A stretch of DNA of 8,915 bases from Treponema sp. (GTDB lineage Bacteria > Spirochaetota > Spirochaetia > Treponematales > Treponemataceae): contig JAGADS010000141.1 of the NCBI GenBank assembly GCA_017613485.1, forward strand, positions 1 to 8,915, in the 5' to 3' direction. The position numbers and the translations under genes were made by a program. How positions within the stretch are numbered: the first letter of the stretch is position 1; every line of letters starts with the position of its first letter. This document shows positions 2,933 to 8,545 of this stretch, piece by piece. Below the pieces are notes generated by a model. That model was not told the DNA's origin and searched no databases. It saw only the letters and a program-made list of their open reading frames with translations.

Positions 2933-2942
2933 AATCCCAAAA

Positions 2943-3009
2943 ATCGGTGAGTTAACTCACTGAATTTCGGTGCGTAAACTCACTGAATTTCAGTGGGTAA
3001 AACTCACTG
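2943..3009 (+). promoter_or_regulatory. Array of three tandem palindromic operator-like sites (array 1)
   Basis: Three dyad sites follow each other. Site 1 is GTGAGTTAACTCAC (2947-2960), a perfect 14-bp palindrome. Site 2 is GTGCGTAAACTCAC (2970-2983). Site 3 is GTGGGTAAAACTCAC (2993-3007). Their centres lie about 23 bp apart, roughly two helical turns. With flanks, the half-site extends to ACTCACTGAA. The array sits just upstream of the lipoprotein promoter. Bases 2940-2985 reappear at 5145-5190 with a single mismatch. This is the expected layout for cooperative binding of a dimeric transcription factor. The factor itself is not identified; the NarL-type regulator encoded at 6695 is a candidate (inference). 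Confidence 0.75.
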
Positions 3010-3010
3010 G

Positions 3011-3039
3011 AATTATTATACGGGGGGGTATATTATAAT
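3011..3039 (+). promoter_or_regulatory. Promoter region of the acidic lipoprotein gene with a G7 tract
   Basis: A -10 box follows operator array 1, either TATTAT (3031-3036) or TATAAT (3034-3039). No convincing -35 hexamer is present, as is usual for activator-dependent promoters. A run of seven G (3022-3028) lies directly in front of the -10. With TATTAT, the distance from the last operator site to the -10 is 23 bases, the same as at the second array. A change in tract length would move the operator relative to the -10 box. Confidence 0.55.
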
Positions 3040-3073
3040 CACAAAATTAAATCTTTATTCAAGGAGAAACAAA

Positions 3074-3559
3074 ATGAAAAGATTTTCTAAGGTTATGGTT
3101 GTATTGGCGGCATTGCTTTTGGGCTGTGCATTTATCGGATGCTCAAATAGTCCAGAATCAGGTGGTGGAACAACAGTAGCAGGTGCAAGAGCATACAACA
3201 TAAAAGAAGTCAAAGTGTATGTATATCCAGATCCAAATAGTTTTAACCATACATCAACTACGTATACCAAGGTAAGCCCCGAATGGAATGATTGGATGGA
3301 ATATCGGGCAGATCTGGGGCTGGGTCCTACTGTTTATTATAAGAAATTATATAAGGAAGGTGAAGGTGATGTTCCTACTTACAGTTTTACGGGTGAAGAA
3401 GGTTCTTTTCGAGAAGAGGAAGAGTTTGAAGAATATCTAGAAGGCATTACTTCAAATGATGATGTGACTGTGGCTAAATATGGTGATGATATTGAAATTG
3501 ATGTTGGTAACAGTTTTAGTGATCATATTGAATTTTTTTACGATTGTTTTGGAAACTAA
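3074..3559 (+). CDS. Acidic lipoprotein of unknown function
   Basis: The 161-residue product starts MKRFSKVMVVLAALLLGCAFIGCSNSPESGG with interruptions only in length here: a basic start, a hydrophobic core, and a lipobox at FIGC (Cys23; LLLGC at Cys18 is the alternative). A Gly/Ser linker follows. The mature part has aromatic stretches (VKVYVYPDP, VYYKKLY) and a strongly acidic region around residues 115-130, then a C-terminus rich in Asp and Phe. No family is recognised. AAGGAGA at 3061-3067, seven bases before ATG 3074, sets the start. A longer frame from GTG 2993 would begin inside the operator array and bury the signal peptide. The gene is monocistronic, between a regulated promoter and a strong terminator, which suggests a surface or periplasmic product made on demand. 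Being lipidated, it is probably membrane-anchored. Confidence 0.85.
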   Translation: MKRFSKVMVVLAALLLGCAFIGCSNSPESGGGTTVAGARAYNIKEVKVYVYPDPNSFNHTSTTYTKVSPEWNDWMEYRADLGLGPTVYYKKLYKEGEGDVPTYSFTGEEGSFREEEEFEEYLEGITSNDDVTVAKYGDDIEIDVGNSFSDHIEFFYDCFGN

Positions 3560-3600
3560 ATGTTGTTAATTAAGCAGATGCGATAAGTATCTGACCTTAT

Positions 3601-3632
3601 GCCGGTGGGAATAATCCTGCCGGCTTTTTTTT
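3601..3632 (+). terminator. Rho-independent terminator after the acidic lipoprotein gene
   Basis: GCCGGTGGGA (3601-3610) pairs with TCCTGCCGGC (3615-3624) around the loop ATAA, giving a 10-bp stem with two G-U pairs. A run of eight T (3625-3632) follows. It lies about 40 bases after the lipoprotein stop and separates that transcript from the downstream ATPase gene. Confidence 0.93.
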
Positions 3633-3661
3633 GTGTGGCGGGGCGGTAAATGCCGGGGTTC

Positions 3662-3690
3662 TTGAAACAAAACTTCTGTTGCTATATAAT
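3662..3690 (+). promoter_or_regulatory. Sigma-70-type promoter of the ATPase_2/DUF234 gene
   Basis: TTGAAA (3662-3667), a 17-base spacer and a perfect TATAAT (3685-3690) make a strong promoter. The predicted start point is near 3697, in the middle of the 22-bp palindrome. The ATG at 3723 is served by GGAG at 3713-3716, six bases upstream. Confidence 0.8.
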
Positions 3691-3719
3691 TTACTCTAGA
3701 GTAAATTACTTTGGAGTAA
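3687..3719 (+). promoter_or_regulatory. 22-bp perfect palindrome plus a second dyad at the ATPase start point
   Basis: Positions 3687-3708 are a perfect palindrome with core TTTACTCTAGAGTAAA. It overlaps the last bases of the -10 box and the predicted start point. A second, imperfect dyad, TTACT-TTGG-AGTAA (3706-3719), follows and contains the ribosome site. The half-site GAGTAAAT occurs at 3699-3706 and again at 3714-3721. A repressor bound here would block both promoter escape and ribosome binding. The regulator is unknown; autoregulation by the ATPase is possible but unsupported. Confidence 0.65.
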
Positions 3720-3722
3720 ATA

Positions 3723-5138
3723 ATGGATAAGGAAAACGAGATATTCATCGGCAGGGCAGCTGAACTCAGTTTTTTGGAAAAGCTTTATAATTCCAGGAAT
3801 TTTGAGATGCTCATTCTGCATGGCCGCCGCAGGATAGGTAAAACTTATCTTCTCGGTCATTTTGCAGGCCTGCACTCAAAAAACACAGTTTATTTTACAG
3901 GCGACAAATCCTCGGAAAAAACAAACGTAAAGAATTTTTGTGACGAGCTAAATAAAGTTCTGAATGCAGGAGATTTCCTTAACTCATTTGAAAAATGGAG
4001 CGATGTATATTCCTTTATCAAAAGAACCGAAATCAAAGAGCGCCTTGTAATCATAATCGATGAGTTCACTTATCTTTACAGCTCAAATCCGGCGTATGAT
4101 TCAGGGCTTCAGATAGCAATAGACACAATCCTCAGGAAGAAAAACATTTTCCTTATTCTCTGCGGGTCGGAGGTGTCTGTAATCGAGGATATAATCGACA
4201 ATTCATCAAAGCCACTATATGGCCGTAAGACTGCCGAGCTTAAGCTTTTTCCGTTCACATACAGGGAAGCGCGGGAGTTCTTTCCCAAATACAATGATGA
4301 GCAGGCTCTGTGCGCCTATTCAATACTGGGCGGGATTCCTTTTTACCTTACGCTTTTTGACGACAGCCGTTCAATCAAGGAGAACATAATCACTCACTGC
4401 CTTTCTACCACAGGAGTTCTTTTTAACGAGATAGAGACGCTTCTTAGGATGGAGCTTAAGGAAACGTATTTTTACAAGAGCATAATGCTTGCCATAAATG
4501 CAGGGGCATCGACATTTGAAAAGATAAGGGACAAGGTGGGGGAGGAGCCTGCAAAAATCGCAAAGTATATGAGCGTGCTGTGCAACCTGGGTTTCATAAA
4601 GAGGGAGGTTCCGTGCGGTGAAAAACAGACCAGCCGCAATACGCTTTATTCAATCTGCGACAATTATTTTGCATTTTATTTTATGTTCATTTTTAAGAAG
4701 CAGAACATGCTGAACGGTCTAATCTCTCCGAAACTGTTTTACGAGCGAGAGATTACAAAGGAAAGCCTGAATACATTTATCGGTCATCGCTTCGAGTCTA
4801 TCTGCGAGGCATACCTCAAGGAGCTTTTTTACAACGGCAAGATGCCTTTTTTTGCCGAGAATCTTGGGCGCTGGTGGGGTAACAATCCGGTCCTTAAAAG
4901 GCAGGAGGAGATAGATTTGATTGCAACCGATGAGGAGAACGCCCTTTTCTGCGAGAGTAAATATACAGAGAAAAAATTCAATGAGGGGCAGCTCAAGGAT
5001 TTGGAGGATGCCTCCCTGAGCATAAACCGTCCGAATAAATACTTCATGATTTTTTCAAGGAAAGGCGTTACAAGCGGAGTTGAAAAAGCGATAAAAGGCA
5101 AAGACAGATATTATGTTGTCACGCTAAAAGAATTGTAG
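3723..5138 (+). CDS. ATPase_2 / DUF234 family ATPase with PD-(D/E)XK-like C-terminus
   Basis: This 471-residue protein begins with the family signature FIGRAAELSFLE (8-19). Walker A is GRRRIGKT (34-41), Walker B is LVIIIDEF (108-115), and LCGSEVS (146-152) acts as the sensor segment. KPLYGRKTAELKLFPF (163-178) and the ILGGIPFYL box (201-209) are typical of the archaeal-type ATPase_2 family. A winged-helix-like region comes next (about 245-315). The DUF234 C-terminus (about 350-471) has FESICEAYLKEL, GRWWG, EEIDLIA (395-401) and LFCESKY (408-414). This last set is an E-D-ESK arrangement like PD-(D/E)XK nucleases. The biological role is not established for the family; nuclease activity is inference. 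The gene has its own promoter, palindromic operator and ribosome site, and no co-transcribed partner upstream. Confidence 0.92.
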   Translation: MDKENEIFIGRAAELSFLEKLYNSRNFEMLILHGRRRIGKTYLLGHFAGLHSKNTVYFTGDKSSEKTNVKNFCDELNKVLNAGDFLNSFEKWSDVYSFIKRTEIKERLVIIIDEFTYLYSSNPAYDSGLQIAIDTILRKKNIFLILCGSEVSVIEDIIDNSSKPLYGRKTAELKLFPFTYREAREFFPKYNDEQALCAYSILGGIPFYLTLFDDSRSIKENIITHCLSTTGVLFNEIETLLRMELKETYFYKSIMLAINAGASTFEKIRDKVGEEPAKIAKYMSVLCNLGFIKREVPCGEKQTSRNTLYSICDNYFAFYFMFIFKKQNMLNGLISPKLFYEREITKESLNTFIGHRFESICEAYLKELFYNGKMPFFAENLGRWWGNNPVLKRQEEIDLIATDEENALFCESKYTEKKFNEGQLKDLEDASLSINRPNKYFMIFSRKGVTSGVEKAIKGKDRYYVVTLKEL

Positions 5139-5144
5139 AAACTG

Positions 5145-5190
5145 AAAATCGGTGAGTTAACTCACTGAAATTCGGTGCGTAAACTCACTG
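5145..5190 (+). promoter_or_regulatory. Array of two tandem palindromic operator-like sites (array 2)
   Basis: This 46-base segment matches 2940-2985 with one mismatch. It holds GTGAGTTAACTCAC (5152-5165) and GTGCGTAAACTCAC (5175-5188), again 23 bp from centre to centre. It begins just after the ATPase stop codon and lies immediately upstream of the promoter of the two-component operon. Conservation of dyads and spacing at two unlinked promoters argues for one shared DNA-binding regulator. Confidence 0.75.
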
Positions 5191-5217
5191 GATTTGTATT
5201 TTTGTATGCTGTATAAT
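5189..5217 (+). promoter_or_regulatory. Promoter of the histidine kinase / response regulator operon
   Basis: A perfect TATAAT lies at 5212-5217. At the 17-base position there is only TGGATT (5189-5194), a poor -35 that abuts the last operator dyad. This suggests an activator-dependent promoter, with the factor replacing -35 contacts. GGGGAG (5234-5239), eight bases before ATG 5248, is the ribosome site of the first reading frame. Confidence 0.6.
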
Positions 5218-5247: not shown

Positions 5248-5526
5248 ATGAATGAGAAAAAAACTTTTAAACACATAATTGAAATTGCTCTGGTCGTAAT
5301 CGTCGGATTTGGCTTATGACAGGGTTATCTTCGCATTCAACGGCGAGAATCTCAGTTTCCTTGCGTCTGCCATTCTTGGACGTATCCCTGTTACGATTCT
5401 TGACAGGATCATTACAACCTTTGCTGGTTTTGGAATATTCAAGCTGTATTCAAAAATAAAATCTGCTATACAGAAAAAAGTACGGGGGGGGTACAGCTTC
5501 CTAGCGAATCTGAGAATAAAGTATGA
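5248..5526 (+). pseudogene. Frameshifted small membrane protein at the head of the two-component operon
   Basis: A well-placed ribosome site and ATG 5248 start a 23-codon frame (MNEKKTFKHIIEIALVVIVG..) that stops at TGA 5317. The protein-like sequence continues in the +1 frame from about 5311: AYDRVIFAFNGENLSFLAS and later LDRIITTFAGFGIFKLYSKI. It has two likely membrane segments and resembles the end of a multi-pass membrane protein; no family is certain. One extra T in the TTT at 5308-5310 would explain the first shift. Slippage at TTA-TGA-C is a weaker alternative. The second frame then runs through a run of eight G into the kinase gene, to TGA 5597. With nine G it would return to the original frame and end at a TGA overlapping the kinase ATG (ATGA, 5523-5526). 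This could be a decayed gene, a phase-variable gene or a sequencing error. Confidence 0.55.
5484..5491 (+). repeat. Poly-G tract (G8) before the histidine kinase gene
   Basis: Eight consecutive G lie in the sequence TAC-G8-TACAGC, 31 bases upstream of the kinase ATG. Tracts of this length are prone to slippage in replication. Tract length sets where translation of the upstream frame ends: TAG 5502 with seven G, TGA 5597 with eight, and TGA overlapping the kinase start with nine. Confidence 0.85.
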
Positions 5527-6476
5527 AAAAGCTTCCCTTCATCTTTTTGATTTCAATAGTCCTCTTCTCATGCAGTCTGGAGAAAAAACCGCTTTCTGAG
5601 TCATCTTCTGATTCACATTCTACCGTAGAGATTTCCGAGCTTTCATTGTCTGATGCACAGAATATGATTCTTCAACTTGAGGAAAAGAACAGACTCCTTG
5701 AGGAAACGCACCAGATTCTCTTTAAGTATTTTATCTGCCTGATTGCGACCATTATAACGATAGCCGCCATTCTTGTGTTTCTAAATGCCAAGGAGAGTAA
5801 ACGCAAGGATAAAATCATCTACAATTCAGAGCAGTTCCTTCAGCATTCAATCAAGGTACAGGAGGCAGAGCGCAAGAGGATAAGCCAGGAGCTGCATGAT
5901 TCTGTGGCACAAAGCCTGCGTTACGTATCGCTTCTGGCAGAAAACCTTGATGACAAAGAGGCGGCCGCTCAGATTATCAAGACACAGAATAACAACATAG
6001 ACAGCATAAGAAGACTGTGCTACAACCTTACTCCCCCTGCAATAAACGGAGAAAACCTGATTCCTGTAATCAACCTTTTGGGACAGAAACTCTTTGACCC
6101 TGAGCATACGGATTTTCAGTTCCGTGTTGTCTGCGAGCCGAGCGTTGATTTTGACAAATGGAATGATGATGAGCTCTTGAACATTTACCGCATCATTCAG
6201 GAAAGCCTCCAGAACATTCAGAAACATGCAAGGGCCTGTGAGACAACAGTGCTTTTCAGGAAAGGGGAAAATGACGGGCTTAAAATCATCGTGACGGATG
6301 ACGGCTGCGGAATGGATGAGAAATTATTGAATCAGATTAACAGCGGATTTTTTGAGAATGTTGAGGATATGCATTTTGGACTGAGGAATATTTTTGAGCG
6401 CGTGAAATTTCTTAAGGGAAGCGTCACTTATTTTTCCGAGGAGAATGCGGGAACAAGAATTGTCCTGGAGGTTTAG
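5523..6476 (+). CDS. Lipid-anchored NarL-family sensor histidine kinase
   Basis: The 317-residue protein starts with a lipoprotein signal peptide (MKKLPFIFLISIVLFSC, Cys17). A short Ser-rich periplasmic part and a coiled-coil-like stretch (about 42-66) follow, and then one membrane helix (about 69-88). The cytoplasmic part has a HisKA_3 dimerisation domain with ERKRISQELHDSVAQSLR; His125 is the phosphoacceptor. The HATPase_c domain has its N-box at IIQESLQNIQKHA (214-226), G1 at VTDDGCGM (247-254) and GLRNIFERV (276-284). These are the features of NarL/DegS-type kinases, and all catalytic boxes look intact. No classical sensor domain is present, so sensing would rest on the 50-residue outer segment, the membrane helix or a partner, perhaps the broken membrane protein upstream. 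The ribosome site is weak (GAG at 5512-5514), fitting translational coupling. The partner regulator is encoded at 6695. Confidence 0.93.
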   Translation: MKKLPFIFLISIVLFSCSLEKKPLSESSSDSHSTVEISELSLSDAQNMILQLEEKNRLLEETHQILFKYFICLIATIITIAAILVFLNAKESKRKDKIIYNSEQFLQHSIKVQEAERKRISQELHDSVAQSLRYVSLLAENLDDKEAAAQIIKTQNNNIDSIRRLCYNLTPPAINGENLIPVINLLGQKLFDPEHTDFQFRVVCEPSVDFDKWNDDELLNIYRIIQESLQNIQKHARACETTVLFRKGENDGLKIIVTDDGCGMDEKLLNQINSGFFENVEDMHFGLRNIFERVKFLKGSVTYFSEENAGTRIVLEV

Positions 6477-6687
6477 ATGCATGGTGTCATGCTGAACTTG
6501 ATTCAGCATCTGTTGATGAGATTCCGAATCAAGTTCGGAATGACGGTTTTTGCTTGGAATGACGATTTTTATGCTGGAGTTAGATGCATGGTGTCATGCT
6601 GAACTTGATTCAGCATCTGTTGATGAGATTCCGAATCAAGTTCGGAATGACGATTTTTGCTTGGAATGACAATTTTTATGCTGGAGA
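6474..6687. repeat. Tandem duplication of a 107-bp hairpin-bearing repeat
   Basis: Two copies (6474-6580 and 6581-6687) differ internally by only two G/A substitutions. Each carries two perfect 8-bp hairpins. The first, ATGCTGAA-CTTGA-TTCAGCAT, is at 6489-6509 and again at 6596-6616. The second, ATTCCGAA-TCAAG-TTCGGAAT, is at 6521-6541 and again at 6628-6648. The two loops are complementary, and GAACTTGATTC in the first hairpin can pair fully with GAATCAAGTTC in the second, so an alternative long stem is possible. Translation gives LNLIQHLLMRFRIKFGMT, a signature seen where dispersed palindromic repeats are wrongly called as proteins. The unit is probably a REP/MITE-like element. The first copy starts exactly at the kinase stop codon. 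The second copy's end supplies GGAG for the response regulator. Confidence 0.88.
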
Positions 6688-6694
6688 TTTGAAT

Positions 6695-7315
6695 ATGAAA
6701 AAAAGCTTTTACATAGTTGACGATCATGAGATGCTCAGGCTTGGAACGATTTCATACATAGAGAACAACTCAGGCTGGATTTGCATTGGAAGCACAGGCG
6801 ACCACAATCAGGTTATGCTGGAACTTGAAAAACTGTCTGTTGAGGGAAGGCTACCGTCTGTATTGATTTCCGACTTGAATTTTTATGGCGAGGACACAGG
6901 ATTTTCTCTTGTAAAAAACATTCATGAGAAATACCCTCAAATAAAGATAATCGTATACTCCATGTATTTTGCACCTGGTGTCGTTCAGAATGCAGTGCAG
7001 AACGGAGCACATGGCTATATCTCAAAGAATGCCTCTTCCGCCGAGCTGCTTTCGTGCATGGACAAGGTAGTTGAAGGGGAGCTTTTCATACAGGATGAGC
7101 TTCAGAAAAATCTGTTCAAGTATACTGCCATTACAGATGCCCTGACGAACAGGGAAAAAGCTGTCCTTGATCTTCTTGTCCGGCATTATACCAACGACCA
7201 GATTTCAGAAGAGCTTGGCATAAAAAGACGTGCGGTTGAAAACTACATATCAAGTATCTACGTTAAGACAGGCATAAACGACAGGGCAGAGCTTCTCCTA
7301 AGATACGGAAAGTAA
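6695..7315 (+). CDS. NarL/LuxR-type response regulator
   Basis: The 206-residue protein has an N-terminal receiver domain (about 4-118). It contains the acidic pair Asp9/Asp10, the phosphoacceptor Asp60 in VLISDLNF, the switch Ser89 in IIVYSM, and Lys111 in GYISKNAS. A LuxR-type helix-turn-helix follows (about 147-203): LTNREKAVLDLL..YTNDQISEELGIKRRAVENYISSIYVKTG. It should bind DNA as a dimer after phosphorylation by the kinase encoded just upstream. The start is ATG 6695, with GGAG (6683-6686) eight bases ahead. A longer in-frame start at 6584 would translate the repeat element and displace the receiver domain. The dyad symmetry of the operator arrays at 2943 and 5145 is compatible with binding by such a regulator, implying autoregulation and control of the acidic lipoprotein gene (inference). 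Confidence 0.95.
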   Translation: MKKSFYIVDDHEMLRLGTISYIENNSGWICIGSTGDHNQVMLELEKLSVEGRLPSVLISDLNFYGEDTGFSLVKNIHEKYPQIKIIVYSMYFAPGVVQNAVQNGAHGYISKNASSAELLSCMDKVVEGELFIQDELQKNLFKYTAITDALTNREKAVLDLLVRHYTNDQISEELGIKRRAVENYISSIYVKTGINDRAELLLRYGK

Positions 7316-7333: not shown

Positions 7334-8545
7334 TTATTCTTCCGGGAGAACTTCCAGAAGGTTGTGCATTATATTCTGGATGTATTCCGGGGGTATGCGG
7401 TCCTGGCTCAAAAGGTTTTTCCCGGGGTTCTGCCTTAGTGCGGCAAATGTGTTTTTCTCCTGCTGCGTAAGGTTTCGTGGAATTGAATTATTCTTGAGCG
7501 GTGTTCCTTTCTCCAGATACTGTGCAAAGTGAACGAGGGTCTCATCATCCATGCAGAGCGGTTCGGTTTTGGGGAATGAGATTCTGAATGTTGAAAGCAT
7601 GTCAAAGCCGAATTCACTGATTGTCCCGAAATAGAACAGCCGATAAAGCGTGAACCACTGGCACAGTTTTAATGCATTGAGTGTATATGAGTTGGCAAAA
7701 ATGCAGAGGCAGTTTTCCGTGCGTGGAAAGCTAAGGTATGCTCCCTCTGTGTCCACAAGTATTACCGTTGTAATATCCCTCAGAAAATCAGTCTGATCAA
7801 GGTGAATGAAATCGTTGAGTGTGAGAGAGATCTCTTCCGGGGCAAGTGCTCCAAGCCGTGCGGGGTTTGCAATGGAAAGCGTGCGAAATCTGATGAAGAA
7901 TGAGCGCGGTTTTTCCTGTCCGGGATATTTGAGACGTATTCTGTTTTCGGGTATGGGTTCCCTTTCCTGTTGAACTTTCGGCTGCTCTGGTGCTTTTTTT
8001 GGAGGTGTTTTTGGCTGTGGCTCGAATATTTCAACCGGTTCTTCAAATATGGCCGTTTCTTCCGTTTTTTTGGGCTTTGTCTCTTCCTGAGCGTTTATGG
8101 CGATTCCACTCCAGAATTTTACGTTCTGCCTGTAATCCTGAACAAGATGCGGTATGTTCTCAAATGCCCATTCCTTGAGCTGCTCCTTTGTGATCTTGCG
8201 GTCTTTCTGAAGCATCAGTATGGCGGTGCGGAGGTTCTTTACCTCATCTTTTTTGTCTATGAACGAAAGATAGTCGTCTTCTGTAGCAAAAAAAATCTTG
8301 CGGATATATGTTTGCGGTCCCTTGCTCCTTGTGACGATGGTCTCGGTTTCCAGGGAATAGCCTGTGCCTGTGTTTGCCTTGGAGTAACGCAGTATGTCCG
8401 GGTCTCCGTTGGCCTGTCCGGTGATCTGCAGGGGAAAGAATGCACCGATTTCATCCCTAGGGGTTCCGCATAAAATCGTGATTATGTATCTCTGAAAATC
8501 TCCGTATGACTCAAGCGCGCGGTCTTTTATCTCGTTAACAGTCAT
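7334..8545 (-). CDS. Orphan JetD-like protein (DUF3322-DUF2220) with altered Toprim active site
   Basis: In Wadjet systems JetD is the Toprim nuclease that cuts plasmid DNA held by the SMC-like JetABC complex. This 403-residue product has the same layout. The N-terminal DUF3322-like region (about 30-150) has FFPLQI, then GPQTYIRKIFFATEDDYLSF and W145. The C-terminal DUF2220 region has VDTEGAYLSFP (264-274, Glu267), NALKLCQWF (290-298), FGTISEFGF (306-314), PKTEPLCMDDETLVHFAQY, and the end NLTQQEKNTFAAL..SQDRIPPEYIQ. In active JetD the segment near 306 reads like YWGDIDTHGF. Here both metal-binding Asp are replaced by Thr308 and Ser310, so nuclease activity is doubtful. A Pro/Lys/Glu-rich linker (about 154-205) separates the domains and is unusual. 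No jetA, jetB or jetC lies beside it. A weak ribosome site (GGGTGG, 8555-8550) precedes ATG 8545. Family assignment is from recalled motifs. Confidence 0.8.
   Translation of the reverse strand: MTVNEIKDRALESYGDFQRYIITILCGTPRDEIGAFFPLQITGQANGDPDILRYSKANTGTGYSLETETIVTRSKGPQTYIRKIFFATEDDYLSFIDKKDEVKNLRTAILMLQKDRKITKEQLKEWAFENIPHLVQDYRQNVKFWSGIAINAQEETKPKKTEETAIFEEPVEIFEPQPKTPPKKAPEQPKVQQEREPIPENRIRLKYPGQEKPRSFFIRFRTLSIANPARLGALAPEEISLTLNDFIHLDQTDFLRDITTVILVDTEGAYLSFPRTENCLCIFANSYTLNALKLCQWFTLYRLFYFGTISEFGFDMLSTFRISFPKTEPLCMDDETLVHFAQYLEKGTPLKNNSIPRNLTQQEKNTFAALRQNPGKNLLSQDRIPPEYIQNIMHNLLEVLPEE

Follow-up and report, generated by a model that had tools for sequence, protein, structure and literature searches.

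RcsB, the regulator of the Rcs envelope response, is a NarL-type response regulator that recognizes a 14-bp palindrome and controls envelope genes, with a lipoprotein in its sensory chain. BvgA also belongs to the NarL family. At the Bordetella fha and ptx promoters, BvgA binds as head-to-head dimers with 22 bp between centres, the strong site being an inverted heptad and the last dimer adjoining the −35 element (PMC7250471). We analysed an 8,915-nucleotide stretch of Treponema sp. DNA (GCA_017613485.1, contig JAGADS010000141.1; hereafter the window) that carries two arrays of tandem palindromes, one before an acidic lipoprotein gene and the other before an operon encoding a membrane protein, a histidine kinase and a NarL-type response regulator. 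We consider it highly probable (about 0.85) that the arrays are binding sites of this regulator, encoded at 6695–7315, which would activate its own operon together with genes for lipoproteins and other exported proteins.

The original prediction, made from the window's sequence, described two near-identical arrays phased at 23 bp, the first with a third site. On recounting, bases 2940–2985 and 5145–5190 agreed at 45 of 46 positions. Array 1, on the forward strand like array 2, both core promoters, the lipoprotein gene and the three operon genes, comprises a distal site, GTGAGTTAACTCAC, at 2947–2960, a middle site, GTGCGTAAACTCAC, at 2970–2983, and a promoter-proximal site, GTGGGTAAAACTCAC, at 2993–3007; array 2 comprises a distal GTGAGTTAACTCAC at 5152–5165 and a proximal GTGCGTAAACTCAC at 5175–5188. 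The distal 14-mer is a perfect inverted heptad (GTGAGTT-AACTCAC). Site starts fall 23 bp apart throughout (2947/2970/2993 and 5152/5175), and the linkers are always 9 bases long (TGAATTTCG and similar). The predicted third site is present in array 1, but its palindrome is 15 bases long rather than 14, with a centre of 7 bases. A scan of the window with a 20-base description at no more than three mismatches returned six matches, all on four array sites, two of which were hit on either strand; that description missed the 15-mer at 2993. Against these six, 200 dinucleotide shuffles of the window gave a mean of 0.01 matches and a maximum of 1, and the arrays are not a product of chance.

A motif survey of related genomes, as the original prediction had proposed, came out in its favour overall, with the motif's presence following that of the regulator. 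Two sites in register, scanned in one genome per species, were found at ten loci: nine of treponeme type, in four genomes (UBA1233, RUG12833, JC4 and RUI560), and one on a Streptomyces contig (L008), a single match in a GC-rich stretch and probably a chance hit. Single-site matches on both strands numbered 13, 35, 3 and 4 in these four treponeme-type genomes (G001–G004), against 4, 1, 0 and 3 for a reversed control. Co-occurrence was assessed in 196 genomes of JC4's genus, an even sample of a larger group. Thirty-nine matched the regulator at E ≤ 1e-45, and the 32 whose regulator shares at least 52% identity with that of the window were counted, leaving out seven at 38–46% identity (G008, G063, G083, G090, G117, G155 and G168); among the 32, the matches in G021, G024 and G134 cover only part of the query, and those in G021, G024 and G089 have an internal stop. 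The site pattern GTGNGTAAAACNCAC occurred in 30/32 regulator-bearing genomes versus 12/164 others, the latter near the level of a reversed control pattern (14/196). It had been picked after promoters were read and was tried on 14 genomes of each kind (12/14 regulator-bearing versus 0/14 others) before use on all 196; the first, earlier pattern gave 18/32 versus 5/164, and counting all 39 regulator matches gives GTGNGTAAAACNCAC in 31/39 versus 11/157. The Fisher p value of 2e-23 for 30/32 versus 12/164 is not corrected for kinship and, because the genomes are related, overstates their independence. Physical linkage is the stronger point: by coordinate comparison, 21 of the 30 genomes with both have a site no more than 5 kb from the regulator gene. 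In a small second genus, two of three regulator-bearing genomes (with partial regulator matches) and none of four others contained the first pattern.

The arrays are also phased to promoters. The claim of a recognizable −10 and a poor −35 beside each array was borne out: the lipoprotein gene's core promoter (3008–3036) consists of TGGAAT at 3008–3013 and TATTAT at 3031–3036, and that of the two-component operon (5189–5217) of TGGATT at 5189–5194 and TATAAT at 5212–5217, each with a 17-nt spacer. For a wider view, we assembled 66 arrays from the loci listed by the single-site scan of G001–G004 and by the first pattern and from the upstream regions of regulator operons, orienting each by its 15-mer and downstream gene (one G001 site counts twice, once per direction). 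Of these, 51 have a 15-mer as their proximal site. With offsets measured from the final base of the proximal site to the first base of a −10-like hexamer, we found the hexamer at exactly 23 in 42/66 arrays, whereas the other 53 offsets averaged 2.6 and never exceeded 8; with near-duplicates removed, the count was 32/51. Among 21 further sites from regulator-bearing genomes without the first pattern, the offset-23 hexamer was present in 13, or in 11 of the 19 outside the 66 (G056 and G088 9624 were already included, and the sites of G025, G087 and G164 are near-identical). By base counts, the −35 hexamer, taken as the first six bases past the site (17-bp spacer), is most commonly TGGAAT or TGGATT; TGGAWT thus stands where TTGACA is expected, a poor −35 match. 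An offset of 23 combined with a 17-bp spacer means that the proximal site directly adjoins the −35 position, which is where an activator replacing −35 contacts would be expected to sit. An upstream neighbour at a 9-bp gap is recognizable for 26 of the 66 proximal sites and not for the other 40, and second sites lie 52 bp away in G173 and G197. A variant array (GTGCGTAAAACTCACT...GTGCGTTCACACT...) was seen in G002, G009 and G127 and, less alike, in G054 (L037 1505, L152 1661, L211 and L181 1533); it precedes the same conserved gene (MAKSKKEPEDF...) in G002 and G127 and has no −10-like hexamer at offset 23.

At the loci read out, arrays of one to three sites mostly lie 30–170 bp 5′ of start codons. 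The three-gene operon stands behind arrays in ten genomes (G001, G002, G003, G056, G061, G088, G173, G176, G187 and G197), and genes of its membrane-protein type stand behind sites in G128 and G148. Other genes behind arrays encode lipoproteins, one of them with a PF03781 domain, BspA-type leucine-rich repeat proteins (the one tested has PF13306) and a PF01547 solute-binding protein. A crude, home-made export-signal rule with visible errors both ways placed 46 of the 66 oriented arrays before this operon or exported-protein genes: 27 before a lipobox protein, 10 before another protein with a hydrophobic N-terminus (the window's broken operon gene counted among them) and 9 before the operon's membrane protein. 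Thirteen precede neither class, and seven have no frame of 80 amino acids within 300 bp. Either signal was present in 36/121 comparison frames of at least 150 amino acids from the same loci. The array count is favoured by the use of the downstream gene in setting orientation. Judged by eye, 15 of the 21 further sites precede a lipoprotein or exported-protein gene (11) or a gene of the operon membrane-protein type (4). Of 24 operon copies (20 relatives with the membrane protein first, three with the kinase start only, and the window), 11, the window included, have a site within about 260 bp upstream; in G025, G087 and G164, the operon follows a small lipoprotein gene, and a site stands in front of that gene, about 570 bp upstream of the operon. 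Outside the 66 are weak or single matches in G001 (C2), G002 (C30:15873), G057, G093 (two), G176 (C60:15325, C70 and C106), G193, G172 (C35), G096 (C6:22), G088 (7027) and G009 (C18:2101), some of which fall within reading frames; a further single-site match, G002 C46:8784, is likewise outside the 66. The original prediction had named a motif dispersed inside genes as one outcome that would speak against it; the sites instead lie mostly upstream of lipoprotein or exported-protein genes. In G001 (L044), the array and the membrane-protein gene have between them a small lipoprotein-like frame (MKKFLFAIVVSLCVVMCMNAC..., about 42 codons). In G009, an array precedes a frame for a second, different NarL-like response regulator (L152 2628, G009 C4:9627), a possible cascade.

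Within the window, the gene behind array 1 (3074–3559) encodes an acidic lipoprotein of 161 amino acids with no match in Pfam or NCBIfam; a relative (MKRFSKVMVVLAALLLGCAFIGC...) stands behind a site in G061. The operon behind array 2 keeps the order membrane protein, histidine kinase, NarL-type response regulator in Treponema relatives. Its first gene (5249–5521) is broken: the start of the conserved membrane protein is followed by a stop and then by the C-terminal part in another frame, with the middle absent; the protein is intact, at about 205 amino acids, in most relatives read. Two intact relatives tested had no Pfam match, the membrane protein had no NCBIfam match, and a database search found 147 relatives, the few named ones among the 120 listed being Treponema or Spirochaetaceae. 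The second gene (5523–6476) encodes a 317-amino-acid histidine kinase with HisKA_3 and HATPase_c and no other domain at E ≤ 0.001, equal in length to its nearest relatives in G197, G173 and G061; those of G001–G003 have a longer outer part. Kinase N-termini in the relatives and in the window (5523–5580) look lipobox-like by eye (LFSC, LASC, LVSC, LVCC and similar), the motif in the relatives coming after a brief hydrophobic stretch; such a start seems unusual for histidine kinases. The JC4 kinase frame is split into two overlapping frames (L045 1014–2175), in the strain or in the assembly.

The third gene (6695–7315) encodes the proposed array binder. As predicted for the operon behind array 2, it is a NarL/FixJ-type regulator, with PF00072 (Response_reg) followed by PF00196 (GerE, a LuxR-type helix-turn-helix), both above cut-off; it falls below every NCBIfam equivalog cut-off (best 78 bits versus 300). 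D9, D10, D60, S89 and K111 are invariant in four aligned orthologues and, assigned by position, correspond to the acidic pair, phospho-acceptor Asp, Thr/Ser and Lys of the receiver; RAVENYIS of the DNA-binding helix is retained in 28 of 34 aligned relatives. A partner kinase of HisKA_3 type is encoded in the same operon, in a gene order kept in relatives. The gap between the kinase and regulator genes is 218 bases, with a repeat, in the window versus 0 to about 80 in relatives with both genes marked. The repeat (6473–6686) consists of two 107-bp tandem copies of a palindromic unit, a 26-base piece of which is present in five of the nine relatives examined, with as many as 18 copies in a genome.

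Several other readings of the arrays deserve consideration. Binding by a Crp/Fnr-type regulator is suggested by the perfect 14-mers, whose GTGA-N6-TCAC matches the Crp consensus core, and by the position of the last array site relative to the −10, which is that of class II Crp sites. The N6 centre is found in the 14-mers, but 51 of the 66 proximal sites have a 7-base centre, and first halves are often GTGG or GTGC. HTH_Crp_2 matches in nearly all genomes also speak for such a binder, but, occurring in 192/196 (126 over cut-off), they do not follow the motif. In addition, 19 of the 30 genomes with both regulator and motif, including the site-rich G001, G002 and G176, had no HTH_Crp_2 match better than 1e-8 and 11 had one, a threshold set afterwards and applied to assemblies that may be incomplete; G119 and G187 had no match at E ≤ 0.001, and several of the 19 had weaker matches over the Pfam cut-off, mostly to a helix-turn-helix core in longer frames. 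We consider a Crp/Fnr-type binder very unlikely. The neighbouring regulator might instead bind and repress, its dimers beside the −35 blocking RNA polymerase; the sites do adjoin the core promoter, and position alone is compatible with either sign. The consistently poor −35 and fixed −10 geometry are what would be expected of an activator that replaces −35 contacts, and BvgA, with the same layout, activates (PMC7250471). We regard repression as improbable, though less so than a Crp/Fnr-type binder.

A reading of the arrays as dispersed repeats or recombination sites (REP, iteron or cassette end) with no part in regulation could be argued from the near-identical copies within a few kilobases and from the true dispersed palindromic repeat at 6473–6686 of the same window. 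The arrays, by comparison, have one to three units, are phased to promoters and lie mostly upstream of start codons, largely in regulator-bearing genomes, so this explanation is hardly credible; promoter phasing and gene positions speak against an integron-type site as well. Recognition of TGGAATT at the −35 by an alternative sigma factor is not favoured, because the −10 resembles the standard TATAAT and there are palindromes upstream. Some observations do weigh against activation by the operon's own regulator. No −10-like hexamer stands at offset 23 in 24 of the 66 arrays, and 13 of the 24 operon copies have no site within about 260 bp, some of these stretches being only 170 bp long (G006, G096, G051, G025, G164, G087, G061b, G197b, G119, G113, G172, G127 and G148). 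The first gene of the window's operon is broken. Single-site matches in G004 (4) barely exceed the reversed control (3); G024 and G113 have the regulator without a pattern match; and G167 and G063 show convincing sites but no close regulator, possibly owing to incomplete assemblies. Centre spacing also differs, at 23–23.5 bp in treponeme arrays versus 22 bp at BvgA sites.

Sites, spacing, promoter geometry, linkage and co-occurrence are properties of the sequences themselves; from them, we infer binding by the 6695–7315 regulator, dependence on phosphorylation, and activation rather than repression. In the proposed mechanism, one regulator dimer would occupy each 14–15-bp palindrome (GTGNGT-N2-3-ACTCAC, an inverted heptad), and dimers would stack at about 23 bp, or two helical turns, up to the −35, recruiting sigma-70 RNA polymerase to promoters with a weak −35 (TGGAWT). 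The phosphorylated regulator would thereby activate its own operon through array 2 and the lipoprotein gene through array 1, and in relatives a wider set comprising lipoproteins, BspA-type repeat proteins and other exported proteins. The regulon model of the original prediction is thus supported by motif–regulator co-occurrence, the fixed distance to the −10, and the operon and lipoprotein targets, with a regulon that appears larger in relatives. More speculatively, the kinase may itself be a lipoprotein that, with the membrane protein, reads lipoprotein export or surface contact and adjusts surface lipoproteins accordingly. If so, such a self-referential sensor would be a spirochaete counterpart of Rcs or Bvg made from unrelated sensor parts. 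Among the titles and abstract openings searched, from a library without most subscription journals, there was no description of a treponeme regulon or motif of this kind, and no paper in that library contained the exact 14–15-mers; motif and regulon are apparently undescribed, whereas promoters laid out in this way are already known. The regulator, its probable operator and the target list predict each other across about 30 genomes, and a single purified protein plus a single reporter would allow a direct test of how treponeme surface proteins are controlled.

Other features of the window surround these elements. Two identical 24-bp direct repeats (2877–2900 and 2909–2932) lie immediately 5′ of array 1, and each array adjoins an AAA ATPase gene, at 1526–2851 (AAA_14/DUF4143) and 3723–5138 (ATPase_2/DUF234); in G061 and G197, an end resembling that of the 3723–5138 gene lies upstream of the operon. 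Positions 7334–8545 encode a 403-amino-acid protein matching the Wadjet JetD C-terminal domain (E 7e-18), with no further Wadjet gene seen in the window.

Among solved structures, those closest to the regulator by sequence are DesR, VraR, DevR and NarL, which share its order of receiver and GerE domains over nearly its whole length; the best match reaches only E 2.8e-19 (DesR). The likeness to Crp/Fnr regulons is confined to the GTGA-N6-TCAC core of the perfect 14-mers and differs in the 7-base centre of most proximal sites. The Rcs system, like the treponeme one, combines a NarL-type regulator, a 14-bp palindrome, envelope genes and a lipoprotein element, but no phosphorelay was seen in the treponeme system, where the kinase itself has the lipobox-like N-terminus. 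BvgA shares the promoter architecture: it too uses inverted-heptad sites in tandem two helical turns apart, the last adjoining the −35, and its targets include surface adhesins, as the treponeme arrays precede surface- or exported-protein genes (PMC7250471). The differences lie in the heptad letters (fha site TAAGAAATTTCCTA in the same source versus treponeme GTGAGTTAACTCAC), in the treponeme proximal site, which is mostly 15 bp, and in the kinase, which is not a BvgS-type multidomain protein, HisKA_3 and HATPase_c being its sole domain matches at E ≤ 0.001. Because geometry and surface-protein targets agree with those of BvgA, we read the arrays as putative operators of the 6695–7315 regulator acting as an activator. 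The occurrence of the BvgA promoter layout in another phylum suggests that some of the NarL family use it generally.

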